Source: Polytrichum commune (lineage: Eukaryota; Streptophyta; Polytrichopsida; Polytrichales; Polytrichaceae). Taken from it: a DNA stretch of 64,000 nt. Positions 7,173 to 50,259 of this stretch are shown here, piece after piece (position 1 is the first letter of the stretch; each line of letters begins with the position of its first letter). The notes under the pieces were generated by a model. It saw only the letters and a list, made by a program, of their open reading frames with translations. It did no database searches and was not told the origin of the DNA. The position numbers were made by a program, and so were the translations under genes. The stretch lies in the NCBI GenBank assembly GCA_950295325.1, contig OX485806.1, positions 11,654,001-11,718,000 of the forward strand, written 5' to 3'.

Positions 7173-9252
7173 TAGTTATACGACTAGTGTCATACCAAAT
7201 GTGTAAACTTCTTATGGGTATAATAATTATGCTTTGACAAGTTTACTCTCATCCATCAACATGTGGAACACTTGACTCCCCAATGCATAGGTTTGTGGCC
7301 TTCGTCACGATGATATGATTCATTCAACGTCGGCTAGATATTAAACTCATTGTCTAGGGGTAACGTTTAGAACTTGGGGTTCAGGCATAGAGTTTTAGTT
7401 TTTAGAGTGCATGTTTAGGATGGAGGGTTGAGGCTTGTAGGTTGAATTGTAAGCATATTTATGCCAATATGTTTGAAATGTCACTATGTTACTTGACCCA
7501 AGATTGATCACTAGTTTAAATGGTGAAAGGTTAGTGACCATAACGTTACCCCATTTTTCAAAACACCACATTGGAGCTTCAAATGACCGTTCCATTCGTA
7601 ATGGCCACCCTTGCATTTTGCACATAACTGAGCTCATTGGATTTCAAAGGCAGATTGGAGCCCACTAAATAACTTAACCCATAAACCCCAAACCCTAAAC
7701 CCTAAACCCTAAAAAGTTCACAATTATTGCGCACTGGAGTGGGAGTGACAACACAACAATCAGTGACAACTTCAAATGTTTGACAATGTATGCCATATTT
7801 GCCAACCACCATTATATTAATTTCATGTAGTTTTCCAATCTAGTGCACGCCATATACTACTAGGCAGTTGTGTTGTCCAAAATTAATGCATAATCCAAAT
7901 ATACTCAAATCCCTGTTTCCATCAATTGAGGTAGCTCTTGGTTTGCTCTAACTCTAACTTAAGTTTGGATTCAATTTGTCTCTTAGACTAGTAGCTCAAA
8001 TAAATGCCAATGAATCTACCTACACCAATATTGGCAATTAGGTAGTCTTGCACTAATCTATTGGCATGTCACATTACTTGATTATTTATTACCAGTACAA
8101 CAAAATACACAAATTTTGTATGGACTTTAATTGTGATAGGAATGAACCAAAAAACTTAATATAAGGTTTTTGATCCGAGTTTGACCTATGGAAAGTTGCT
8201 TGCGTAAAGAGGCGATGTAAGAGGCAACACAACTTTACCCATTTGCGAAGGCAACCTAATTACACGTACTAAGGTTATGAGTGTGGATGGAAGGAAAGTG
8301 GAGAGGTCATAAAGGGGAGATCCAATGGGTGAACTCCCAATTACGAACAATATAGGCACTTTCAACAATTGACTCCGACCATTGCAAGAGCAACTGCTTG
8401 GGCGTGAACTTTTGAAGACATGATGTGAAGATATGTGACACGTGGCATGCTCACAGGAATTTGCGGGAATGGCCAGTGTTGTAACTGCTTCCTACAGGGT
8501 CCAAGCCATGCATTTATTTGGATGCATTATTGCCACGAAGACACTTGGACACATGGTGATTAAGGTTTGAGGGCCTTATGTTCGCGCTTCTTAATTAAAC
8601 ACCTATATTTGTCACTAACGCAGATCAATTGTCCAAGAGTTGTATGCTTGTAATACGTGCAGTTATGAGGGAACACTAAATGAACACGTGTTAGGATGAG
8701 ATTAACTTACGACGTGCTCAAATGTAGACAACGCTTTAAATTGACTAGTTTGATCAGCTGATTCAAATCATTTTAGAGTTCTTAGACTATGACTTAGCTA
8801 TTGGACCTAACAAAATAATGTAAAAAGTGTGACCAATGGTGGAAGCAACCGATTCAGACATAGCACTTAATATGAATATCAAATATATTTGGGATTGGTT
8901 TTGTATCATGGTAGCCCATTCATTATTTGCTTCAAATGCAAACCAAAGTGGTACTTCGAGTATAGGGTTTAGGGTTTAGGGTTTAGGGTTTAAGTAGGCT
9001 GATGGGCCTCCAGAGGCTACTCAATCTTCACTAATATTAACCCACACATGCACTTTTCACCTTTCATTTAGGGTATTGGACTAATTGTTAAATAGGGTAG
9101 AAGGGTCTAGGGTCAATTCGAGACGGCATCCTCAGATGAAGTTGGAGGCGCAAATTTCAAATTCTTCCAATTTAATTTATGAATTGTTGAACCCCATAAG
9201 CCCAATGGGGTTACTATAATGGGGTTAATAAGCCCCTTCCTAATTTGCTTCT
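7173..9252. other. Intergenic DNA with interstitial telomere-like runs
   Basis: CCCTAAA is repeated about three to four times at 7684-7713, and TTTAGGG about four times at 8963-8993 in the opposite orientation. A G-box-like ACACGTGGC lies near 8437-8446. No supported gene. Confidence 0.6.
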
Positions 9253-10255: not shown

Positions 10256-10515
10256 AAGGAGCACACTCGAACCCTCTTTTGTCGCCCTTTGTGCCAGGGA
10301 GCACAACACCACAACATTCTTCTTTCTATCCCTTCCAGGGATCAATTTCACAAGGTTCGGTCCTACACAACAAGAAACACCTGATCGAAGAGGCGCTGTT
10401 CAATGTGCCGTTCCATATGCATGGAGCATTGCAGCGGCACCATATTTGCGGGGCCCTGTACCCATCCCTGCAGTCCGTACAGTACGGCCCGAACAACCGG
10501 CGCTGGGAGGCCCAA

Positions 10516-10663
10516 CACTTTCACTCGATCGAGTGAAAGTGGTGGGCCTGCAATCGACTCGCCAGCCCACTTTCACTCGATCGAGTGAAAGTTTTGTGGC
10601 GCGGCGCTGGCAGGCCCACCACTTTCACTCGATCGAGTGAAAGTGGGCTGGCGAGTCGATTGC
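10516..10663. repeat. Three core palindromes inside a 42-bp hairpin
   Basis: Perfect palindromes with the same half-site CTTTCACTCGA are at 10516-10541 (26 bp), 10569-10592 (24) and 10619-10646 (28). In addition 10550-10591 is the exact reverse complement of 10622-10663 (42 of 42), separated by a 30-base loop, so the second and third copies form a larger stem. Confidence 0.9.
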
Positions 10664-36949: not shown

Positions 36950-37559
36950 CGCTTTGGTAATCTAGGCTAGGGTAGGAGGAATAGCTAAGATTATTACTTG
37001 TGCCCAAGTTGGAGCTACTAGGACCTCTAGCTCAAAGAAGGTTATTGTTAGAAATATTTGGGTGAGTCGTTTTGCAAACACAGCCATGCCCTTTACATCG
37101 AACTGAAATGATCTTGGGTGAAGAGTGATTGTAGAAGCTGATTGGAGCTTGAAACATTGGATGCATTGATGCCAGTGTCATAATGTGGTCTTCGGATGGA
37201 AAATATGGATTGGGCTAGAATTCTTGACACTTGGAAACCAACCAAAAACTAAAGGGCATTGCCTTTGGAGTTGGATGATGATTAAGTGCATTATGTAGGG
37301 AATCTAAAAGTGAGTGAGAGGGGCGAAGCCCTGTCGATTTCGAAAGGCCGCTGGAGGTAAGGGGGGAAAACCAAGGGTTGAAGCAGTAGCTCTGTTGCTC
37401 CTCTAGATTCTTCCCCCCTAGCCACCCACCTCTTAGAAATTTGAAAGGGCATCCCCCCCATGCACGATCCACCACCTCAACATAAAACCACCCTTGAGCC
37501 ACACTAAGCGCATCTCACTTCCCCCCAGAGTACCCCGAAACCAGGTATAGAAGAGAGCC
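36950..37559. other. No gene seen
   Basis: A 95-codon minus-strand frame (37215-37502) has no domain and is not called. Confidence 0.4.
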
Positions 37560-38735
37560 CAGGAGTAGCTTGTGTTGCCGAAGAAGCTGCCACTATCGAA
37601 GAAGCTGCTACTGTCAAAGGAGCTGCCATCTGCAGAAGAACTTGGTGCCGTTGAAGAAGTTGGTGTTGCCCAACAAATCGTTACTGAAGAGGTTGCTGTG
37701 TGCCGAAGTTGTTGCCTCCGAAGCTATCAGGGAGATTCTTGGGCATAATCGGTTGAGATCCTCGTCGAAGAAGCTGCTACTGTCAAAGGAGTTGCCACAT
37801 ACATAAGAAGTTGGTACCGTTGAAGAAGCTGGCGTTGCCCAACAAATCGTTGTTACAGAAGAGGTGTTGTTGTGTGCCGAAGTTGCTACTGTCGGAAGCT
37901 GCGACTGCAATTCTCAACCTTGATCTATGTAGATTGCACAAAAGTTAAGGTGTCCAACTTAAAATGCTTATGTTGTTCACCATGAGCTCAACACAACGTT
38001 TTTGAAGACCTGAGTGCAAGTAGATCTGTTACCAGGGAGATTCTTGAGCATAATCGGTTGAGATCCTCGTGTTTGCAAGTACAACCGGTTCTGTATTGAC
38101 ATCCTCTTGTTTTCCTTTGATAAACTGAGATTATTAGAGTTTAGGACAACCTGAGTGAGAGAACTAGAGACACATCTGAGTGGGAGCGGAGATCTAAGTG
38201 AGAACTGCGAAAGCAGTTATCTAAGAACAAGAGAGGTATCTTGATTCTAGAACAGATAACTAGTAGATCTAGAGGCAGCAACCTCCACCGAAACCGACGA
38301 TACTAACCGAGGATAGGCTTCTAGATAGAAAAGTGACAGCTTGAGTGAAGTAGACATCTGGAGTTGAACAAAAGCTGAGATTTTAAGCGAAAGCAGAAGT
38401 GTTCACCGTTAGCTCAACAGTGAAGTGTTCACTGTGAGCTCAATACTGAGATTTTGAGACCTGAGTGGGAGCAAATAAGTGATCAGGGAGATTTTTGCCA
38501 TAATCGGTTAAGATCCCCGTGTCTGCAAAGTACAACCTGTTACACATTGACATCCTCTTGTTTTCCTTTAAGCGAGAGCAGAAGTGTTTAAACCGTTAGC
38601 TCAACTGTGAAGTGTTCATTGTGAGCTCAATACAGAGATTTTGAGACCTGAGTGGGAGCAGATCAGTGATCAGGGAGGTTTTTGGCCATAATCGGATAAG
38701 ATCCCCGTGTCTGCAAAGTACAACAGAAGAGGCTC
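37560..38735 (+). repeat. Tandem modules upstream of the LINE ORF1
   Basis: A duplicated block of about 167 bp (GAAGAAGCTGCTACTGTCAA near 37599 and 37766) is followed by a module of about 185 bp. That module occurs at about 37960-38125 (diverged), 38386-38570 and 38571-38733. It contains GTTAGCTCAAC, GAGATTTTGAGACCTGAGTG, and AGGGAGATTYTTG...CATAATCGGTTGAGATCC. The last phrase also recurs at 37735 and is one end of the MITE family at 53137. Repeated 5' modules are common promoters in LINEs; that role here is inference. Confidence 0.65.
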
Positions 38736-39337
38736 GGCTAGGCTTGGCTGGCTCGGAGACAGCGGCCACCGAGAGAAGGAGCCACTATTCAAAAATACCA
38801 TCGCAAGACTGAAGTTGAGGAGAGTTGTTAGTTGTTGCCGAAGAGTTGTTGATTTGCTGCCGGAGAGTTGGTGTTTTCTGTCAGAGAGCTGCTGGTTGTT
38901 GTTACACTCACCGAAGTCAAGATACACCGAAGATCAGGAGCTTGTAACAAAGAGATATTGCCTTTTTCAAGGTAGGAGGGAGTTCGAGGTGCTGAGAAGG
39001 AGAGGAGCAACTCCAACAAAATACTGCCCGAGCTAAACCAGGTATCACTCAAAACCCACACTTAGATAGGCACTTAGACACATAGAGAACACACACACAA
39101 ACGAAACAAACTAAAATCACAGTAGATACACACTTAATCAATTAGAAACACACACACACATTAGTTAACTAGGCACTTAGCTTCTTTTTTGCTCCCTAAA
39201 AGTAAAAGTAGTTTTGCTGCCCCTCATCCGCTTGGTAAGTTTACACGTTAATTTGTTTTCTCATTATTTGCACATAGGCACACACATAGTCTTAGACACA
39301 TCATAGCATTGATAGGTTTGTTAGGATAGTAAGCAAA
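38736..39337 (+). other. Presumed 5' leader of the LINE
   Basis: Transitional sequence rich in CACACA runs between the tandem modules and ORF1. No other gene seen. The true 5' end of the element is not resolved. Confidence 0.35.
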
Positions 39338-41539
39338 ATGAAGGTTGCATATGCAACCTACCTTATTATCATTATGTGGCTAGTACTATCCACACCATAC
39401 TGGATATACTCTCATAGTGTCAACTCTCACACCACATGGGAATGCCTTACAAACTCTTGCTTTAAAAACACATATAAGAACATCATAAATCCAAAGGTAT
39501 GGTATAACAACCTTAATGTTCATAACATAAATGAATGTTCCATTAGAAATAATGGATCCGTGGTAGTAACGGTAGATGCTTGTGCTTTTAGTTATACTTG
39601 CCTCAAATGCTTAGGAGATGAATGGAATGTTAGAGTTGTGACAAATCATAATCTACATAAGAGCACTTACAACCAATTTGTAAATACTAATATGAAGATT
39701 CATATGAATAGGAAAAGGTGTTATCATAGGATGAATGCAAGTTGTACTCATACTAGTACTCATATGATGTTAGAACGTGCAAATCACTTCTTCTTTCACT
39801 CTCAATTCCTAGGAGGCCCACAACTTAATTTGTGGAAAGGAATTAGAGGAAAGAAAATAAGAAGTATACCTCATTCAAAACTAAAGTACAAAACGTTTGT
39901 TTGCTTTGCTTATATCAGAATGGCAACCATCACTCCAACCTCATCATCCCGTAAGTTGTTTGAAAATGAAAATATAGATTCTACAAGTGGAAAACGTCCA
40001 GTGCTTGCTGTGGTATTGTCAAGTCAAAAGAAGGTTAAAGGAATAGCACCCACTGAGAGAACACGCCCCCCCTATTGGCTAGGTTTTCAAGCTATGAACA
40101 CAATTGCAAAATTTGCTAACATGCCTCTCATTCAAACACCTTCTTTCACTGAGTTAGTCAAAAAAGGTATGTGTGAGTCTGAAGCACATGAAATGGTGGA
40201 GTCATCTCCCTCCTTTCCGTTCGTTGCCCAAGAAGAGTGGCCTTCTATACGAACGGATGGTAAGGAGGGAATGCACTACAATCTCACCCAGATTCCTTCG
40301 GATGTGGAAGTGGGTGACCATGGATTTGCTTTGGACTATCACATATCTATCCATTTTGAAATTGAAAGAATAGAATTGGATAGAGATGTGATACTCAACT
40401 TAACAAAGGATAGACTAAAAACAATGAGGATAGAGGTCGGGGAAGTTCTAGGAGAGCCCATAGCTGTCCTTTGTTTTCATGGGACCAAAAGATGGAGTGG
40501 AATTATTAAACTCTACCTTAAAAACCCTGAAATGGATGGATATGGCCTTCTCTGTGGATTGAGACCTTTCATCCTCAAGCTTGGCCAATTTACACATGCT
40601 ATAGGCAAAGTGTGTAAATCCTTCGATACCATTGCAATTGCATCCATGCTCTCCGTCAAAATCACAACCCCGTCAATCAAGGGTAAAGAATGGTATGATT
40701 TGTTTGTAGAAATAGTTGGGGATGGATTTCGACGGGGCCTTGACTTTGAAATAACGAATGTGCAAAAATCGGTAGATGCAGAGTTTGCTTGGATTAAAGC
40801 ACCCTCTCCAGAGGAAGCCAAAAGAATTAAAGCACTCAAACTTTCATTTTTTAATGAAATAGTAGATGTAAACTTTGCAAGTAATGAAAAACTCTCAGAA
40901 GATGATAAAGCCCGAAAGAATGCACTCATTCTAATCGCCCGTAACCTCAATAAGGTAAAAACAACCATGCAAATCGAAGAAGGAATCCGAAAATGCATGG
41001 GAGAACTAAATGTTCTCGGTTTTTACTTTAGACTTGAGAACGGGAAGCATACGGGCTCATGCAATGTCCAATGCCTCAACTCGTTTGTCTACAAGAAATT
41101 TGTTAAGAAAAATGAAAAAATATTTGGTAAATATGTTGAATTTACCCCCCATCCAAAAAGTCTAGACGGGATAAATGCACCTAGTAAAGAAGAGCTAGTT
41201 AGACTTGGATTTTCAGACGTGAACACCGCACTTGCAAACACCATCCAAGCTCTGGAGAATGGACCGCACCAAAACATCACCAACAAAGATCTCAACAAAA
41301 TGGTAGAAGCAGCGGTAAAAAAGGGGACGGATGAAATACGAAAGGAAATGGTGAACCTTAAAGATGAGATTGTGCAAGAGGCTAAGGTTTATGCCGACCA
41401 TGTGCAAGCGGAGTCAAACAAGAATTCCAAGCTCCAAATACAACTCCTTCAAAGGCAAATGAAGATTACCTTGGATGCTATAGAAGCGGCTCATCCGGAC
41501 ATATCGGAAATTGAAAACAATATGGACTTGACAAACTAA
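39338..41539 (+). CDS. LINE ORF1 protein, 733 residues, with hydrophobic N-terminus
   Basis: An intact frame from ATG 39338 to TAA 41537-41539. Residues about 5-25 (AYATYLIIIMWLVLSTPYWI) look like a signal peptide or membrane anchor, followed by a Cys-containing stretch. A second possible start (MATITPTSSSRKLFENEN) is at residue 195, where a more usual ORF1 sequence begins. Residues about 529-600 (ALILIARNLNKVKT, then GKHTGSCNVQC, then FGKYVEF) fit an RRM-like fold, as in many plant LINE ORF1 proteins. Residues about 649-720 are charged and helical (NKDLNKMVEAAVKKG, EIRKEMVNLKDEIVQEAK), a likely coiled coil for trimerisation. Expected role: RNA binding in the retrotransposition particle. Base composition is normal in G, unlike the ORF2 that follows. 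Confidence 0.65.
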   Translation: MKVAYATYLIIIMWLVLSTPYWIYSHSVNSHTTWECLTNSCFKNTYKNIINPKVWYNNLNVHNINECSIRNNGSVVVTVDACAFSYTCLKCLGDEWNVRVVTNHNLHKSTYNQFVNTNMKIHMNRKRCYHRMNASCTHTSTHMMLERANHFFFHSQFLGGPQLNLWKGIRGKKIRSIPHSKLKYKTFVCFAYIRMATITPTSSSRKLFENENIDSTSGKRPVLAVVLSSQKKVKGIAPTERTRPPYWLGFQAMNTIAKFANMPLIQTPSFTELVKKGMCESEAHEMVESSPSFPFVAQEEWPSIRTDGKEGMHYNLTQIPSDVEVGDHGFALDYHISIHFEIERIELDRDVILNLTKDRLKTMRIEVGEVLGEPIAVLCFHGTKRWSGIIKLYLKNPEMDGYGLLCGLRPFILKLGQFTHAIGKVCKSFDTIAIASMLSVKITTPSIKGKEWYDLFVEIVGDGFRRGLDFEITNVQKSVDAEFAWIKAPSPEEAKRIKALKLSFFNEIVDVNFASNEKLSEDDKARKNALILIARNLNKVKTTMQIEEGIRKCMGELNVLGFYFRLENGKHTGSCNVQCLNSFVYKKFVKKNEKIFGKYVEFTPHPKSLDGINAPSKEELVRLGFSDVNTALANTIQALENGPHQNITNKDLNKMVEAAVKKGTDEIRKEMVNLKDEIVQEAKVYADHVQAESNKNSKLQIQLLQRQMKITLDAIEAAHPDISEIENNMDLTN

Positions 41540-42276
41540 TTTCGACAAACATCCCGGCGGCGTACAATTATAAATTACTTAGAGTATATTTATATACTAA
41601 AAACAAAAACATAATTAAATTGTTAATATATACTAAAAATAAAACCCTACCTATAGTATTCATGAATACTAAAATTTACAAAGAAAACCCCCCCAACACC
41701 TCACAAAAACAAATCTATTTACTCACAATACAACAATATCCTAACCAATACAACAAAGTACACAATACGGCATCGGCCTACCGGCCTCGCCACAAAATAA
41801 AACTAACAAGATATATACACTACAACTTCCTCAACCCCATCATTAACACAATCACAAAGCCTACCCACCAACATACTAAACCTATACACTACCTCCCAAA
41901 AACTACACAAAAAACAATAATTGCCTTACCTAATCTATTTACAAGAAGTAAATATAAACTACTCGCCCTAAATAAACCTCACCTCAACATCAAACACCAT
42001 CACAAACCCTATTTCAAACACCTATTAAACCCTCATTCAAAATACCAACCTCACCCAAAAGATACAATGGCCTCGGCCTACCGGCCTCGCCACACAAATA
42101 ATAACATATACCACTTCATAAATAACTGGAGACTATAAAACTCAATAACAAGCCAAAAATCTATAAAAAATACAAACTCACACTTCTCACCCAAACAAAT
42201 AGAAAACATCATACACGCTATACCTAACCTCTTTACTACAACCAAGTTCACAATCATAATATATCTAAAAACACAC
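41540..42276 (+). other. ORF1-ORF2 spacer, largely open in the ORF2 frame
   Basis: The ORF2 frame is open upstream from 41515, overlapping the ORF1 tail, to a single TAA at 42136-42138, then open again into ORF2. The first ATG in this frame is 41662. Two identical 20-base stretches (CGGCCTACCGGCCTCGCCAC) near 41774 and 42074 lie exactly 300 bases apart and both read SAYRPRH. The spacer could be the decayed N-terminus of ORF2 or an unusually long linker. Confidence 0.5.
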
Positions 42277-42342
42277 ATGAAAAATCCAAAAACACTCCAT
42301 TCCCACGGATACTACTTTATTAACAAACTAGAATTGCTAAAA

Positions 42343-42372
42343 TGCGGGGACATAGAACCCAACCCCGGACCA
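42343..42372 (+). other. 2A-like ribosome-skipping motif at the ORF2 N-terminus
   Basis: CGDIEPNPGP at codons 23-32 matches the D-(V/I)-E-x-N-P-G-P consensus at every fixed residue. It is preceded by a hydrophobic/charged stretch (YYFINKLELLK), as usual for functional 2A. Skipping would occur between G (42367-42369) and P (42370-42372), releasing a 31-residue leader from the rest of ORF2. 2A motifs at LINE N-termini are known in trypanosome and several animal elements. Confidence 0.75.
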
Positions 42373-43020
42373 ATGCCTAACATCCTACATACACACCCTG
42401 CTACACACAAAAAAAGAGCCAACATCTACTTCATTCCAAACACTATAAAACTACAACCTGAATACCAACACATAGCAAACACATTTACCCCCATACTAAA
42501 AAACACACACCCACTACACCCTCAAGCAATAACCACCTACCCGCATCTACATCAATATATCCAAACACAAAGGCAATCACCACTAACCCATATGCTATAC
42601 GCTCTAATCATCACCATCCACCCCTCAATAGACACATGCAATAACATACTAGCCCAACCCCAAAACTACCACTTTAATAACATATGGACGAACACACTGA
42701 TTATCAGACTGGCCAACCTCACCAACCCCCCCGAAAGGCATATATCAACACCTCACCCCTACACAACTTTTGTAGAAAACAATCAAGATATAATATACCC
42801 AAAAAATTCAATACACACAGAGATATATGAATTTATCCACAACCAAGATACTACACCAACACCAATCACCCTTCAAAATAAATTTCCCTTCCTCCCAAAT
42901 CAATTGATCACCGAAGCACTCCGATGCCTAGAAAGCATCAACGAATATTCACACCCACCCCCACCCCCAGCTACTCCCACACCAACCCCAAGAATTAACA
43001 CCGACACCGAGCACGAAACA

Positions 43021-43777
43021 AACATAATAACATGGAATGCGTCATCACTCAACACATCATTACCAAATCTACAAAGCCTAATAAACAACTCGCTAAACAA
43101 CACAGCAATCATACATATCCAAGAAACCAAACTAACCGCAAATAAATCTACAAAATACATACAAAACCTATTTCCGGAATTTAAACTCATTTTCAACAAC
43201 ACACATGCACTCAGAAGATGCATACAACAAAGAATGCCCTATACCCCTGGAAAAGGAGGCTTACTCACACTTATCCACAAGAAATATGCATTCCCTGGGA
43301 ATATCACCAAAATTCCCACGCCAGTAAATATATCTCCATACCTACAAATAATTAAAATAAACAACCATCCACTAATACCTTGGCTAATCATACACATGTA
43401 CATGCCTACACACTTAGAAGACACATGCCTCATTCCACAACTTAAGAACGAAATCACTAACGAAATCACTATACACCCCAATCACATGTATTCATTATGT
43501 GGGGACTTTAACCGAGATATCGCACTTAGAGGCAGACAAAATAACAACATTAACACCCCTCCACAAGAAGAAGATTACCAATGGAAAATTTTCACCGCAT
43601 CACTCAACCTAGAATATATCCCAACTAACACTAGCATCTCCAGACAAAGAGGCTATAATTACACATCAACAAGTCTAATAGATGGATTCTACATTCACTC
43701 ACCAGACAACAACAAATTTATTTCTACCACAATCACAAACATGAATCTAAACTCAGACCATTATCCAGTTGTACTAC
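43021..43777 (+). other. APE-type endonuclease domain of ORF2
   Basis: Motifs in order: NIITWNASSL, IIHIQETKL (catalytic E), GGLLTLIHKK, IIHMYMPTH, SLCGDFNRDI (D410 and N412), TSLIDGFYI and NLNSDHYPVVL (catalytic D494-H495). This is the apurinic endonuclease fold of APE-class LINEs. Confidence 0.9.
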
Positions 43778-44694
43778 ATATCCCCCACAACACCCTTATA
43801 GCCAGATCCCCACCCCCCACAAACACGTCACCAACTAGAATACTAAATCCAATACCACCAGAAAACATCGAAAAATTCAACATAACATTCTTCGAAGAAA
43901 ACTCTGCACAAATAAAAGCCCTTACCACCCTACTCGAAAACCACCAACACTTAAGCCCGGATCAATGGGCGGAAGCCTGTACAACATTCGACCACATTGT
44001 ATACAAAATTTCAGAAACGATTGAAGAAACATGTAAAGCAGACCCACTACCCAACCTTACGAACAAAACATCACAACAAGGTGGGTTTTTGCCACGCAAA
44101 CTTGCGAGAAAATGGAAAAGACACCTCAACACATATCACCTCATCAGGAAAACCATATACATTGCACAACACGATCCACTCTGGCAAGCACACCCCATCC
44201 TAAACGATATACGAAACCACCAACACACAAACATCCCACATCCACCTGTTACAACGGCACCTCCTACTGAATGGATTGATGCCATAGCAACCATCGTAAA
44301 AAATGCAAATAAAGAAGCCAGGAAAATCACCACAAAATACACCAAAGACTGCATTCTAAAGGCCGTATCAAAATACCGTCAAATGTATGAAAAAAACCCC
44401 AAAAAGATAAATCAAAAAGTCTTCAAGAACACTGAAACCTCACCCCTAGACTCCATCATTGATAGACAAAATAATATATTAACTAACCCAGAAGACATCG
44501 CAGCAGAAATATACACGCAACAATCCATCAGTAACCGTCCTACAGTTCCCACATGCCAATATCAAAATACACACCCATTACACTGCACATGTGGAGTCCG
44601 GCAATATCCATGGCATGACTTAGACGGATATATCATTGACAAACGAGGAGAACCCCAAACTCCTCTACACACGTATTTTGACCAAGAAATATAC

Positions 44695-45720
44695 GACTTT
44701 TGTCTTAAAAACCTAAGTAATAACAAAGCCCCAGGCCCAGACAAAATACCCAATTCAATTCTAAAAAACATGCCTCCACGCTTCCATAAATTACTCTTCT
44801 TATTTTTTAAACATTGTTATAAATAAAAACAAATCCCTGCATCATGGAAAACCAGTCTAATAGTTTTACTATACAAAAAAGGTAACCCATCACAACTAAC
44901 AAACCATAGACCTATTGCACTAGCTAACACCATATATAAATTCTACACAAGTACATTAACTTCTATCCTATCAGCGTATGGAGAAAAATACCAAATATTA
45001 CACGATAGTCAAGAAGGATTTAGAGCAGAGAGAAGCACTTCTAGGCAAATCCAATTATTAATCGCAGCGCTTGAAGACGCAAGACTCACGAACCAAGATA
45101 TATATATTCTTTACATTGACTTCAAAAACGCCTTCGGCTCCATTGATCACGCCAGACTTTTAGCCATAATGAAAGATCTAGGATATCCCACTGACTCCAT
45201 AAATCTCATAGGAAACATATATTCACAATCCTCAACAATATTCACTGGTGAACACTTCGGTAAAACCTTACCAATCCCCATTCAAAGAGGTACAATACAA
45301 GGTGATACCCTTAGCCCATATCTATTTATCATATTCCTAGAACCCCTCCTCAGATGGCTACAACAAGGGAATAATGGATACACTTTTGGTACATCTAAAA
45401 TTACAATCTCATCAGCAGCATATGCAGATGACCTAGCAGCAATCGCCAATAAACTAGAGACACTACAAACACAACTCAACAAACTAGACAAATTCTGCGA
45501 ATGGGCAGGAATGGATCTTGGAATACCCAAATGCGCAATAACTGGATGCCCAAACAAATCCAAACTTCACCCCACAACCTTTAAAGCCCTAATCCAATCT
45601 ACCAATATCAACTACAGAAACCAACCTATACCAGTCTTAAACCAACATGAACCATACACATATCTAGGAATAAATCTTGCACCATCATTCAAATGGAAAA
45701 CACAAATAAATACCACTACA
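44695..45720 (+). other. Reverse transcriptase domain of ORF2, interrupted by TAA
   Basis: Motifs: NKAPGPDKIPNSILK, then LLFLFFKHCYK, stop TAA (44824), KQIPASWKTSLIVLLYKKGN, LTNHRPIALANTIYKFY, EGFRAERST, ILYIDFKNAFGSIDH (first catalytic D948), TIQGDTLSPYLFIIF, SSAAYADDLAAIAN (D1051-D1052), KFCEWAGMDLGIPKCAITG and YTYLGINL. All catalytic aspartates are present. Confidence 0.95.
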
Positions 45721-47934
45721 GCTAAAGTAATAAAACAGTGTCAAGCCCTTGTAACATGCCCAGCTACTATGAAACAAAAAATAAACATGGCAGATACAGT
45801 CATACGTGCTGGAATAGCATACAGCTTCTACGCAGTGCCATACTCCATACCAGCTATCAAAAAACTCGATAAAAAAATCATAGCACTTCACAAAACCATA
45901 TGCGAAATACCCAAATGCACATCTAACATCGCTACACAACTCCCACACAATCTATTCGGAATCGAAGCATTCTCACTACAAAATGCCTATTTAAGATGCA
46001 TTGGAGAACAACTACAAAATGCACTCAATGATAAAGGTAGAATTGGGAAAATATATGTTAGTCTACTTCAATTCATACTCGCCAAATATGGGGGCTCTAA
46101 GGAAATCACCCGCATTAAATACCACCACTGTGTTAGATCACCCATCACTAGAACATTATTCTTGCTCAAACATAAAGCCGGAGTCCACCTAAAAAGTACA
46201 ATAAACAATTTCCTACTAACCCCATCCCCACTTGAAACTGCATGGATGCAGGAAGCACAAATGTTTCATGGCCTAAATCCCAACACCTCACTTAAATTAC
46301 TACACAAACTACTTGTACATAATATAATCACACTAGACCAAATTACCATGCCTAATGGTACCACTCTAATGAACCCGGACGAATTCAAAATCTACCACTC
46401 CACTCCTTCTAAACTTATCAAAAGCGCACTTAACATAGCTAATCAATTATTTTGCCACCCTCCTGGAAATCAATGCCCCCTACCATGCCAACAACACCAT
46501 CCACTAAGATCCCTAAAAAATAAATATATAATAAGACACCACAATATCCTACCACACCCACCAACTGCCCCCGTACACCCCCCTAACCTCCCCATCCCCC
46601 CTCTACCCCCTCCTCCCAACAACATGCTTAAAGACCCCCGACAATTCCCCATACACAAAATAATCGATCATAAACAAAAACAATCCAATGACCATAACGG
46701 AATAAAAAGAACAGTCACGTCGTACTTATGTCAATGGACTACAACAAATAACAACACATATAACAAATGGCGAACTCAAAGGGACCTATACCCCTACTGT
46801 GAAGCCAACACATGTAATCACAACACAGACCTACTTATTCATTACTACAAAGAAAGACAACACAAACTTTTTTCAAACATAATTAATGCCTACTTCTCCA
46901 CAGAACAACATAGAGACACAAGATACGTCACACCAACCACAATAATTCCACTAGCACATATCTCTATTAATGAATGCAACCCAGAAAACGACATCGAAAC
47001 AAACTCTGATACCATCCAAACACAATTCGATGTCGCTCACATATACGAAGACAATGGCCGACACCTCATTACCATCCCGAAAGCTAGACTAACATGGCTA
47101 TGGAAACAATTCCAATTGGCAAAAAACAACACACACGGTCTAGAACCATCTACCCAATCGTTCGAAACTGAAATTGTTTGGTTATACCAAAGGTACAAAT
47201 ACCGTATCCCAAAAAATGACCCACTCAAACGAGCCCAATATACAATACCAACCCAAATATTAGATCTCCTGATTACAACATTCAATATTAACCACTCATA
47301 TTTTTCATCCCCAGTTACATGCCCCACACAATTCACCCAATTCTACTCACCATTCTCGCGAGACATAATATTTGGATCCCTAGGTAAAGCGTTTGACCAT
47401 AAATGGCAAGGAATCGGTTACGCACACCCTCATAATACAACAGACCTACAACAAGCTATTCACTGGGCGCGCATAGCGGCCCAAAATGATCCATATACAA
47501 TCACTATACTTATATCTCCGGATACTAATTGGTACCAAAACTCCAACCCACACACAGGCCCATTCCCAGACACACACGTCATTGCCCATTTCGCCGCTGA
47601 TACGATCACGTATGAGGAACCCACAATACCCTCCGAGCTCAATACCACAAGAAAAGAACCATCTACCATACAAATATTTTGTATCCATCACCAAAACAAT
47701 AACATAGGCACCTACGAACAAATGAAATTAATAAGCGACACAGCAAATAACCTCCAAATACTACAAAGTCACACACAAACTGCACCACCCACCCCTCTAA
47801 ACACCACCGTTAACCCTAGTAAAAAATGGGCTAAATAAAACTACCCAAACACACCCCTACACAATAATATCCCCACCCCACAACTTCCAAACTACCAAAC
47901 TAACTTACCGCTAAAATTCCACCCCCAATTTAGC

Positions 47935-48345
47935 TACTACACGGACGGATCCTTTATAAAACCCAAAGAAATTGCCCCTGGGGTATAGAGAAGAGAAAGA
48001 GCTGGATACGGTATCTATAGCCCCAAAGGCTTAAATATCGCCAAAAGACTCCATGGGCATCAAAACATACTACGTGGAGAAATGATGGCTATACACAAAA
48101 CACTAAGAATCATCAATACAAAATTCCCTAATGAACCCGCATACATATTCACAGACAGTCTAAACGTATTATACCTACTCAATACACAAATTAAACACCC
48201 CACTCTCCACAATAGTCACCCCGACCAAACCACACTCAAGTCCATGGTAAAAATCCTCCAAGACCGTACACAGCCAATCACACTATACAAAGTCAGAGCA
48301 CACGTCAACATTGACGGTAATGAAAAAGCGGATAAACTAGTAAAA
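47935..48345 (+). other. RNase H domain of ORF2, with TAG inside
   Basis: YYTDGSFI (D1890), then TAG at 47986, RGEMMAIHKTL (E1935), YIFTDSLNVLYLLN (D1960) and YKVRAHVNIDGNEKADKLVK (H2009, D2019). All DEDD plus His positions are kept. Confidence 0.85.
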
Positions 48346-48720
48346 GCCGGGTTAGAATTAGAACACAGAATTGCCATCCACCCATACGAACATGCCCACG
48401 CCATCCCGTACTATTACCAAAAGGACGTCTGGGCCTCGATGGCAGACGTCCCAGACAAAGGCCCAGTAAGATTCTTAGAAAAACAAATTAAAAAATATGA
48501 TAGGGAAACCAATATAGCAATCATGGCCACACAAACCCCCAACACGTGTAAATGGACAGAAAATAGAGACATTGACAAAGAACTGTCCAACGAATTCTGG
48601 ACAAATCCCTTAATCACAGACAAACAAAAATCATGCCTTATTAAATTCCGTACAGGAACATACATGGGTAATGCTAGAAAACAAATGTTCTTCGGTCACC
48701 AGAGGTACCCCTCTATCACA

Positions 48721-49230
48721 TGCCCTATATGCAATTCAAACGATCCAGACACTTGGCTACATGTTCTACTGAAATGCAACCAACAACATATACACTCACT
48801 ACGAATTAAAAGACATAACAAAGCAGTCGGAGAAATTAGGAAGCTTCTAATCTCGTCCGAAAAATCCCGATGTTTTACTCTCATGAATGCCAGTACCTTC
48901 AATAATAACCCCCAAGAAAATACAGTCCCCAATTGGCTACTCCCCTGTACATGTAACACACAAAGATGTCATTGCAACGCAAGATTTCGACCTGATATAC
49001 TCTGCGTTAAAGGATTACCATATCAAAATGACCCTCCCATTGACATTGACCCTAACCTCACCATACAATTTATTGAATTCACATATTGTAACGACAGATT
49101 TTCCCCAGAAACAATAGAAGCAAAAAACAACAAATACAAACCTTTGATTGATAGTATTGCTTCCAGAGGATGGAAAATCGAACCACTTATTGTCATCACA
49201 GCTGGGGCCCGAGCTACGGCCCACATCCCA
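48721..49230 (+). other. CCHC finger and putative restriction-like endonuclease
   Basis: CPICNSNDPDTWLHVLLKC is a C-x2-C-x9-H-x4-C finger. Then comes CTCNTQRCHC, followed by FRPDILCV (D2240), 26 residues later FIEFTYCND (E2267), and EAKNNKYKPLIDSIASRGW. The RPD ... (D/E)-x-T ... K..KY..L pattern is that of the C-terminal restriction-like endonuclease of R2/NeSL-type LINEs. Assignment is by motif only. Confidence 0.6.
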
Positions 49231-49404
49231 TCTATGAAAATACTAGAAGAAAATCTCAAAATACCCCTGGTTACCATCAAAAATACCTTTAAAAACATTA
49301 ATACCATTGCAATACAATATGCCATGTCCATCCTCCTCCATAAGAGGAGAATTGAAAACCACCAACCGCTCCCCCAAAACTTAGACCCTCCATAAAACCC
49401 ACCC

Positions 49405-49415
49405 AAAAAAAAAAA
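49405..49415 (+). other. A-tract after ORF2, probable LINE 3' end
   Basis: Eleven A follow ten bases after the ORF2 stop. It may be the poly(A) end of the element; a target duplication was not found. Confidence 0.4.
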
Positions 49416-50259
49416 CTTATATAATATTTAGTATCTATTTACAGCTCAGAATGAGGGATTGGTGCCGGTTGGTTGGTACAAATTCCTGCTTTTTACTCAC
49501 TTGCAGCACCAAGTCACGCGTTACATTTTAGACGATCATACGGACTCGACTGAAATCGAACCCGGAACGTCTTAACTCAAACATCCTCCCACAACCAACC
49601 GAGGAATCATGACTTGGCGTTCACTCTCATAACAAAAACACTAATTATACCTAAAAGGCATGCACCGCCGTGGGCCATGATCGGCCCACGTTATTTGTTT
49701 CTCGGTTACTATAGTGTCCATCCTCGAAAGAGGAGAGTAGTTTTGTCCCAGCTTCCCCATGTCCTGTGGGCATCGGGTTGTTGGCATTACGAACGGACAC
49801 TCCATTCACGCCGGCCCCTAAAAGGGACCGGAGTTTCTATCTATCTAGGGAATCTAAATAATTATATTACATCATTTTATTGCATGTACTTCTTCAATAT
49901 ATCATATTATTTTCATATGCAATGGGAGACATCATATTATTTTCATATTCAATACAAAACGGCCAATATCAAGTTTTTTCTTGTGAAGTGTTGCAAAAAA
50001 AGTTTGAAAGTTTGAGTGAAGTGTGATAATTTGGAAGCCCTTCACATTGAAATGCATGAGCACACTTCAAACTTGAACACTGCTCAGAAACATCTATGCC
50101 TGCACATAGAATTCCAAACCCCAAGAGACTTTATATGTATAAATTCCTAACTCATTTGATGACTGGCAAGCTAAACTAATGACTGCTGCGGAAACTGTTG
50201 AACGAGACATTGTGACTATATTCTTTACGTGCATGCTTTCGAACAAGCATAGAGACTTA
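49416..50259. other. No gene seen; possible Pol III promoter relic
   Basis: On the minus strand GGGTTCGATTTC near 49562-49551 resembles a B box and CCTCGGTTGGTTGTGGG near 49603-49587 an A box, suggesting a tRNA-derived SINE relic that would end at the T-tract opposite 49405-49415. No T stem forms. Low certainty. Confidence 0.25.

Follow-up and report, generated by a model that had tools for sequence, protein, structure and literature searches.

The window analysed in this work, a stretch of 64,000 nucleotides from the moss Polytrichum commune, contains at 37309-49847 a 12.5-kb LINE with two ORFs, which is bounded by 13-nt target-site duplications and lies, as all the features given below, on the + strand. 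The duplication TAGGGAATCTAAA occupies positions 37296-37308 and is repeated with the same letters at 49846-49858, where its first bases possibly belong to the tail as well. The element comprises a 5' UTR (37309-39919), ORF1 (39920-41539), ORF2 (42277-49395; 2,372 codons) and a 3' UTR (49396-49847). The 5' UTR differs between copies and is only partly common to the DNA upstream of the copies L001 and L002, its 5' limit being fixed by the target-site duplication. The initial annotation had taken 42277-49395 for the LINE itself; this interval is its ORF2, within a longer element. It had also placed the APE, RT, RNase H, finger and RPD...EFT...K..KY motifs in one frame, and all of them do lie in frame 1 of that interval, but the frame is not open in the window copy, which has three premature stops (44824, 47836 and 47986). 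Open homologues occur elsewhere in the same genome: three copies, near-identical to that of the window, keep the ORF2 frame open over 2,625 codons, and L008, a colinear homologue with 63.8% identity, has an open frame of 2,919 aa. At least 150 paralogues were scored in the genome. The window copy is a decayed, dead copy of a young, recently active non-LTR retrotransposon. With so many near-identical copies, the family lends itself to experiments.

The 5' end was settled from longer upstream pieces of the window copy, L001, L002 and L003, and a later check added L008. These are the five copies, out of six LINE copies with upstream DNA examined, that showed target duplications of 12-14 nt; for L004, a duplication was looked for in 4 kb of upstream DNA and none was found. 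A 33-mer present at 15 places (up to three mismatches) had at first been taken as the 5' end, and no duplication was found in the flanks there, because the element extends further upstream. Likewise, an internal poly(A) near 49402, first read as the 3' end, was dropped, as homology continues to 49847.

ORF1 encodes 539 aa from a presumed start Met, in a frame that is open from 39338. Using tblastn, it was recovered at 99% in L001-L003, 51% in L010, 48% in L011, 38% in L008 and 30% in L004, and no match was obtained in L006, L009 and L012, where the sequence examined may stop short of ORF1. No Pfam or NCBIfam family was found for this protein, and its best PDB match (E 0.071) was unconvincing. 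In the region preceding the ORF2 Met, the comparison of subfamilies A and B gave a dN/dS of 0.60, that is, weak constraint; across the named ORF2 domains the same comparison gave 0.05-0.16. Near its N-terminus ORF2 has the 2A (StopGo) motif GDIEPNPGP (42346-42372), an exact instance of the core (D/G/C/N)(V/I)ExNPGP (PMC12846837). The use of an N-terminal 2A as a marker of the lineage holds in part: the canonical core is present in the window copy, L001-L003, L008, L009, L010 and L012, but subfamily B (L004, L005) has GDIKPNPGP, outside the canonical core, L011 has two modules, GDIEPHLGP and GDIHPNPGP, which depart from it as well, and none was found in L006 and L007. The motif is followed by an N-terminal domain of unassigned kind (42373-43017), which is kept in six aligned members and gave a single weak Pfam match (E 0.15).

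The reverse transcriptase (44704-45717, with YADD) matches RVT_1 at 44881-45678, with E 6.8e-30 for the window sequence and 2.6e-29 for an open copy. Its best profile matches were R2 proteins of a turtle and a bird (E 5.2e-32 to 1.6e-29), followed by LINE-1 ORF2 (1.1e-19) and Bombyx R2 (7.6e-19); as sequence scores, they would fit an intermediate position and prove none. RNase H (PF00075) lies at 47926-48357, with E 1.1e-5 in the window sequence and 4.6e-13, above the cut-off, in an open copy. A tentative chromodomain-like segment at 46627-46875 aligned by VIA-align with chromodomains over 51-70 residues (Z 4.8-5.9, rmsd mostly 2-4 Å), Z values that can also reflect a common arrangement. The Pfam Chromo family (PF00385) stayed under its cut-off (E 0.024-0.22), appearing in 2 of 22 members in one scan (best 0.024) and in 3 of 32 in another, and the PDB profile search gave no chromodomain match for the segment, so that a chromodomain in ORF2 is only suggestive.

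ORF2 has endonuclease domains of two kinds. The first is of APE type (43024-43788), with the motifs WNASS, QETKL, CGDFNRD, LIDG and SDH. When this domain was excised and scanned at E ≤10, Exo_endo_phos_2 (PF14529) matched 7/7 family members (best 7e-10) and Exo_endo_phos 6/7 (best 2.6e-7), with L001 at 1.3e-4 against PF14529, under the Pfam cut-off; a scan of the whole open ORF as a single sequence at E 10 had missed the domain. The second is a restriction-like endonuclease (RLE) at 48772-49374, with the pattern R/KPD...E-F-T-Y...K-x2-K-Y and an R2 fold, preceded by a CCHC zinc finger, C-x2-C-x9-H-x4-C (48721-48777). As judged from sequence comparisons, purifying selection acts on both endonucleases: dN/dS was 0.08 for APE and 0.11 for zinc finger plus RLE between subfamilies A and B, and 0.15 and 0.11, respectively, between A and L008. 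It is conceivable, though rather doubtful, that both folds are present and only one of them cuts, the other being a DNA- or RNA-binding relic that is being lost. To our knowledge, LINEs other than Dualen need one nuclease only, and cutting is predicted here from sequence and fold, which leaves room for such a relic; the similar constraint on the two domains in both comparisons speaks against it, as does the retention of the motif residues of both nucleases across the families read, except for the RLE P in L013.

Between RT and RNase H, ORF2 carries a PCIF1/CAPAM-like domain of methyltransferase fold (47098-47727; Pfam match 47128-47415). PF12237 was above the cut-off in the window copy and L001 and in 150/150 genome places among the matches listed, and it matched 32/32 aligned members at E ≤1 (best 1.9e-13), while a reversed and a shuffled control returned no families. 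PCIF1 also provided the three top Foldseek matches, with TM-scores of about 0.2 and rmsd of 14-16 Å for a predicted model of low confidence (mean pLDDT 50.9, pTM 0.31); lower PCIF1 matches have the same Z as the methyltransferase RlmJ, and the PDB profile match to PCIF1 was weak (E 0.018). NPPF is the catalytic motif of PCIF1, a cap-specific adenosine N6-methyltransferase, and human PCIF1 mutants in NPPF are inactive. The ORF2 domain, embedded in a retrotransposon protein, differs in this motif: HPHN takes its place at 47425-47436, HPH[N/T/S] stands there in 33/37 ORFs, and NPP[FYW] in none of the 37. Since HPH[N/T/S] replaces NPPF, the sequence makes a cap or RNA binder more likely than an active m6Am methyltransferase, and the domain probably contacts the capped 5' end of the element RNA. 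That it is instead an active N6-adenine methyltransferase, working on the element's own cap with an altered catalytic motif, seems unlikely to us, in view of the missing NPP[FYW] and of the inactive human mutants, even if its strong constraint (dN/dS 0.12) and its best fold matches, PCIF1 and then the N6-adenine rRNA methyltransferase RlmJ, would suit such an activity.

In Foldseek, the best six matches of the C-terminus were all R2 proteins (probability 1.00, best E 4.9e-5, rmsd 9.4-12.3 Å, for a predicted model of mean pLDDT 64), the following match being at 0.07, and in VIA the seven top matches were R2 (Z 8.8-10.3), other nucleases reaching Z 8.0 at most. Both lists also include many unrelated low-scoring entries (e.g., Ulp1, phytochromes), which were set aside. 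With nothing at E ≤1 in the PDB sequence-profile search, the RLE is identified here by its fold and its motifs, of which D, E and K-x2-K-Y do not vary among 13 aligned sequences and P hardly does. A LINE of the usual APE-only kind, whose unrelated tail contains a finger and RPD/EFT/KY strings by chance, would agree with the empty profile search and with the lack of a Pfam family for the tail, but it is very improbable given the R2 fold matches and the conserved residues. Least probable of all is an APE LINE interrupted by an RLE element and read as one, a pairing of unrelated elements that the three stops of the window copy might evoke and that the uninterrupted colinear frames in three copies (2,625 aa) and in the 64% identical family (2,919 aa), together with a single common set of ends and duplications, have already refuted in practice. 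The initial annotation is thereby borne out on several points: Pfam supports its RVT_1, RNase_H and APE domains, its test of the C-terminus did not refute a restriction-like endonuclease, since the region is R2-like by predicted fold, and Pfam, fold and motifs together place APE, RLE, RT and RNase H in one protein, in a plant host as it had proposed. Its domain set was correct as far as it went, but ORF1, the PCIF1-like domain, the true ends, the SINE partner and the dead state had been overlooked.

The last part of the element, at 49705-49847, is a folded 3' end RNA with a terminal CCGG hairpin (49811-49833) and an (ATCT)n tail. Changes on both sides were observed in 11 of its 39 pairs. The hairpin was located by script in 13 of 20 copies, and in these it is followed by (ATCT)n or (TTC)n. 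These last ~143 nt are shared with an abundant tRNA-like SINE family, whose target duplications (8-17 nt in 15 of 16 complete copies) are similar to those of the LINE. The label tRNA-like rests on A/B-box-like strings recognised by eye, because ARAGORN found no tRNA in seven SINE-bearing or SINE-like loci.

Taken together, the 12.5-kb element of the window is very probably the decayed copy of a young non-LTR retrotransposon of Dualen/RandI type in a moss, a class assigned from domain architecture. In keeping with a moss host, the plastid PsaB is closest to PDB entries for photosystem I of Physcomitrium patens. Its ORF2 has, in one colinear frame, 2A, APE, RT, the PCIF1-like domain, RNase H, the CCHC finger and the R2-type RLE, an order kept by divergent families under purifying selection, and its insertions show target duplications of 12-14 nt and terminate in short repeats that follow a conserved, folded RNA. 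We hypothesize that ribosome skipping, predicted at the 2A, frees an ORF2 protein of ~2,340 aa from a 32-aa leader, and that this protein would bind the RNA that encodes it, at the folded 3' end. First-strand nicking, approximately at R|T, would then fall to the RLE, which is coupled to the RT in the manner of R2; reverse transcription may be primed from the AUCU tail, RNase H would remove the template, and APE would nick the second strand or serve as an alternative nickase; SINEs with the same 3' end may be moved by this machinery. Considerably more speculative is the proposal that the PCIF1-like fold acts in cis on the element's RNA, either recognising or modifying its capped 5' end, and marks full-length RNA for reverse transcription, that the chromodomain-like segment picks the chromatin, and that the two endonucleases split the strand cuts between them. 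A single element lets three questions be tested, namely the retention of two endonucleases, the transition from RLE to APE LINEs and the role of a cap-methyltransferase fold, and its pairing of two kinds of DNA cutter with a cap-methyltransferase-like domain could help to show how such elements acquired new parts. A 2022 review, in its accessible part, mentions L1 and RTE as the sole plant LINEs (PMC9033089); a plant lineage of Dualen type that is young, comprises many families and has a SINE partner would be an addition to these.

Among known systems, R2 resembles the element in its RT, C-terminal CCHC finger and RLE fold. However, we know of no APE, RNase H or 2A in R2, and R2 targets rDNA, whereas the first 100 listed 3' ends of the present element are scattered across 0.5-41 Mb of one chromosome-sized contig. 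APE-type LINEs with an N-terminal 2A share the location of this motif, close to the start of a retrotransposon protein, but they are titled APE-type and the accessible text makes no mention of an RLE (PMC4981915, citing Odon 2013), which is present in ORF2 here. No earlier description was found in the open-licence literature searched. Scans of viral, bacterial and archaeal contigs with two short peptide patterns per scan, and tblastn on phages, found no relatives; because of the composition of these collections, they say nothing on other mosses or algae. The closest likeness is to Dualen/RandI, defined, in the portions of the sources available, by APE plus RLE (PMC4640811, PMC3636483), also with RT and RNase H (PMC4640811), and found in green algae, the label being used in cryptophytes as well (PMC12747079, accessible part). 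As in these elements, APE lies upstream of the RT, a PD-(D/E)XK endonuclease downstream, and RNase H in the same protein. The present element differs in its moss host, and it has a 2A, a PCIF1-like domain and an ORF1, which may also set it apart from the algal elements. Kojima and Fujiwara are said to have described in 2005 a cysteine protease domain in Dualen; no such family appeared in Pfam scans of ORF2, its N-terminal domain and ORF1, large parts of which match nothing. The likeness extends to an associated, non-defining trait, the short tandem repeats found here at the 3' end instead of poly(A), and to the SINE partner: according to the available part of the source, the SINEX of Chlamydomonas has the 3' end of RandI with short terminal repeats, and RandI-paired SINEs terminate in (ATT)n or (CTTT)n (PMC3747384), just as the moss SINEs carry the 3' end of their LINE.

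A PCIF1-like domain, lying in ORF2 between the RT and the RNase H, was overlooked by the initial annotation. The Pfam family PF12237 (PCIF1_WW), which we take to cover part of the PCIF1 methyltransferase domain, exceeded its cut-off there in the window copy (E 1.1e-10) and in L001, a near-identical copy elsewhere in the genome, and at E up to 1 it matched 32 of 32 aligned members (best 1.9e-13); as controls, the reversed and shuffled stretch matched no family, against 4.7e-12 for the real one. Clustered at 80% identity, the 32 sequences form 13 groups, and the first members of these groups share 48-78% identity with one another. A profile search of the PDB with this region returned two matches in all, both PCIF1 chains and both weak (E 0.018 and 0.039). 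The structural model of the region was poor (mean pLDDT 50.9); with it, Foldseek placed PCIF1 of human and zebrafish in its top three rows (E 2.7e-4 to 5.9e-4, TM about 0.2), followed by a row at 0.048. VIA-align also had PCIF1 in its six best rows (Z from 6.7 to 8.2, rmsd about 14); behind these came RlmJ rows at Z 6.7 or less, the highest of them level with the last PCIF1 row. At the position of the NPPF motif of PCIF1, 33 of 37 ORFs read HPH[N/T/S]; these 33 include at least five near-identical copies from the family of the window element. The other four read HPPN, HPYN (two) and HLHN. Neither PCIF1 inside a retrotransposon nor a plant Dualen element was described among the matches listed in the open-licence literature; Repbase may have such entries. 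The same model gave chromodomain matches over residues ~1704-1786 (VIA-align, Z 4.8-5.9); on this segment Pfam Chromo stayed below cut-off and a PDB profile search found no chromodomain. Constraint on it is uneven, since dN/dS was 0.67 between subfamily A (the window's family) and the more distant family L008 against 0.05 between subfamilies A and B, and the possible resemblance to a chromodomain is a lead only.

All motifs listed in the initial annotation do lie in frame 1 of 42277-49395, which has three premature stops in the window copy. Because other copies stay open, these were taken as the working sequences on which the analysis is based, the window copy supplying coordinates only; residues are numbered on the L001 open frame, where the ORF2 Met is residue 254. 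The genome (408 Mb in 64 contigs) has many relatives, with at least 150 scored matches to the C-terminal 224 residues, 85-100% identical, among 5,396 first-look candidates; in three fetched copies the open frame is 2,625 codons. Subfamily B is represented by two copies with open frames of 2,924 and 2,663 codons, 88.7% identical to the first subfamily. A PF12237 search of the genome gave at least 150 places among 698 candidates, with 150 of the 150 listed exceeding the family cut-off, and from them twelve longer and twenty short loci were picked by rank and open frame. The open frame of L008 spans 2,919 codons and aligns colinearly with L001 over residues 267-2619 (63.8% identity), and the remaining longer loci are interrupted by stops or frameshifts.

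Comparison of subfamilies A and B gave a low dN/dS in the APE (0.08), RT (0.05), PCIF1-like domain (0.12), RNase H (0.05), finger plus RLE (0.11), 2A peptide (0.12, 32 codons) and N-terminal domain (0.16). The linker that precedes RNase H has a higher value, 0.52. Since the ratio is low in the domains downstream of Met 42277 but 0.60 upstream of it (99 codons compared), translation of ORF2 probably begins at 42277, 23 residues ahead of the 2A core. The closest upstream Met is more than 300 codons off in L008 and in another locus, L009, and none was seen in L012. A further locus, L011, has two tandem 2A-like modules at 1928 and 2198, separated by a stop; the first of the two is degenerate. The sense strand of 42001-50000 is strikingly G-poor (GC skew to -0.56, AT skew to +0.35), a composition that in itself keeps stop codons rare and may yield long open stretches outside constrained coding.

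In a profile scan of an open copy, RT and RNase H both exceeded their Pfam cut-offs. For the APE endonuclease, the excised domain matched PF14529 in seven of seven members (best 7e-10) and PF03372 in six of seven (best 2.6e-7), both at E up to 10, the PF14529 match of L001 being below cut-off (E 1.3e-4); its profile also matched ExoIII in the PDB (E 0.0016, about 40 residues). The C-terminus, proposed to be a restriction-like endonuclease, had no sequence match in a PDB profile search, and structure prediction supports that assignment. For the model (mean pLDDT 64, most of its residues 161-270 at 70-90), R2 proteins filled the first six Foldseek rows, with E 4.9e-5 to 2.7e-3 and rmsd 9.4-12.3 Å against E 0.07 for the next row. 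They also filled the first seven VIA-align rows (Z 8.8-10.3), ahead of bunyavirus endonucleases, which reach Z 8.0, and Prp8 (6.1), both of them PD-(D/E)XK folds. Of the RLE sequences read, all 16 keep the finger C-x2-C-x9-H-x4-C as well as E-F-T-Y and K-x2-K-Y. R/K-P-D is kept in 15, the exception being L013, which lost the P.

Elsewhere in the window, the separate tandem arrays at 1261-1660 and 10510-10653 have the palindrome CTTTCACTCGATCGAGTGAAAG in common, short interstitial plant-type telomere repeats (AACCCTA) at 7676-7713 and 8963-8992 are inverted relative to each other, with about 1.3 kb between them, and the ORF at 12349-14373 matches DUF7869 (E 4.4e-40). In the genome, contig C8 has two PsaA/PsaB-family genes, one of them matching best the PDB entries 8htu, 6l35 and 7ksq (1,701-1,705 bits; next 1,667), which we take to be from Physcomitrium patens. 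Together with the AACCCTA arrays of the window, this match points to a moss as the host. PsaA/PsaB-matching fragments at C4:47707642 and C5:337267 of the same assembly (G000), on nuclear-sized contigs, are probably plastid DNA insertions.

The span 42277-49395 given initially for the LINE belongs to the element but is not its full extent, copies being homologous beyond both ends. Exact target-site duplications of 12-14 nt were found in five of six copies with fetched upstream DNA (window, 13; L001, L002 and L003, 12 each; L008, 14), all five preceded by a purine; for L004, of subfamily B, none was found in the fetched DNA, and its 5' end may sit further out. ORF1 is a 733-codon ORF directly upstream of ORF2 (39920-41539 in the window, counted from a putative start Met), 30-51% identical in other families. 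Between L004 and the window's family, ORF1 is 30% but ORF2 88.7% identical, which suggests that subfamilies A and B swapped 5' halves. The last ~140 nt of the element can be folded into a branched RNA (nine aligned sequences), with 11 of 39 pairs changed on both sides. The RNAalifold covariation term is nearly zero, so that support is moderate for a branched fold being kept at the 3' end of the LINE RNA.

This folded 3' end, together with the same kind of target duplication, is found in an abundant tRNA-like SINE family (49705-49847 in the window; L069, L070 and L075-L096 elsewhere). An exact 23-mer of the LINE 3' end occurs 833 times in the genome (406 on one strand, 427 on the other). Ten such ends were fetched: one belongs to a longer stretch of the LINE (~540 nt), two have ~270 nt in common with the element at 77.5%, two have 83 and 96 nt, and five match it only from 49705 on, four with the same tRNA-like head and the fifth without it. 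A 34-nt pattern of the SINE head has 420 exact occurrences. By script, 16 of 24 SINE copies examined were complete, 15 of these having exact duplications of 8-17 nt, with a purine ahead of the first T in 13 of the 15. A parallel to this sharing of 3' tails is known from Chlamydomonas, where RandI and SINEX have a common tail (PMC3747384).
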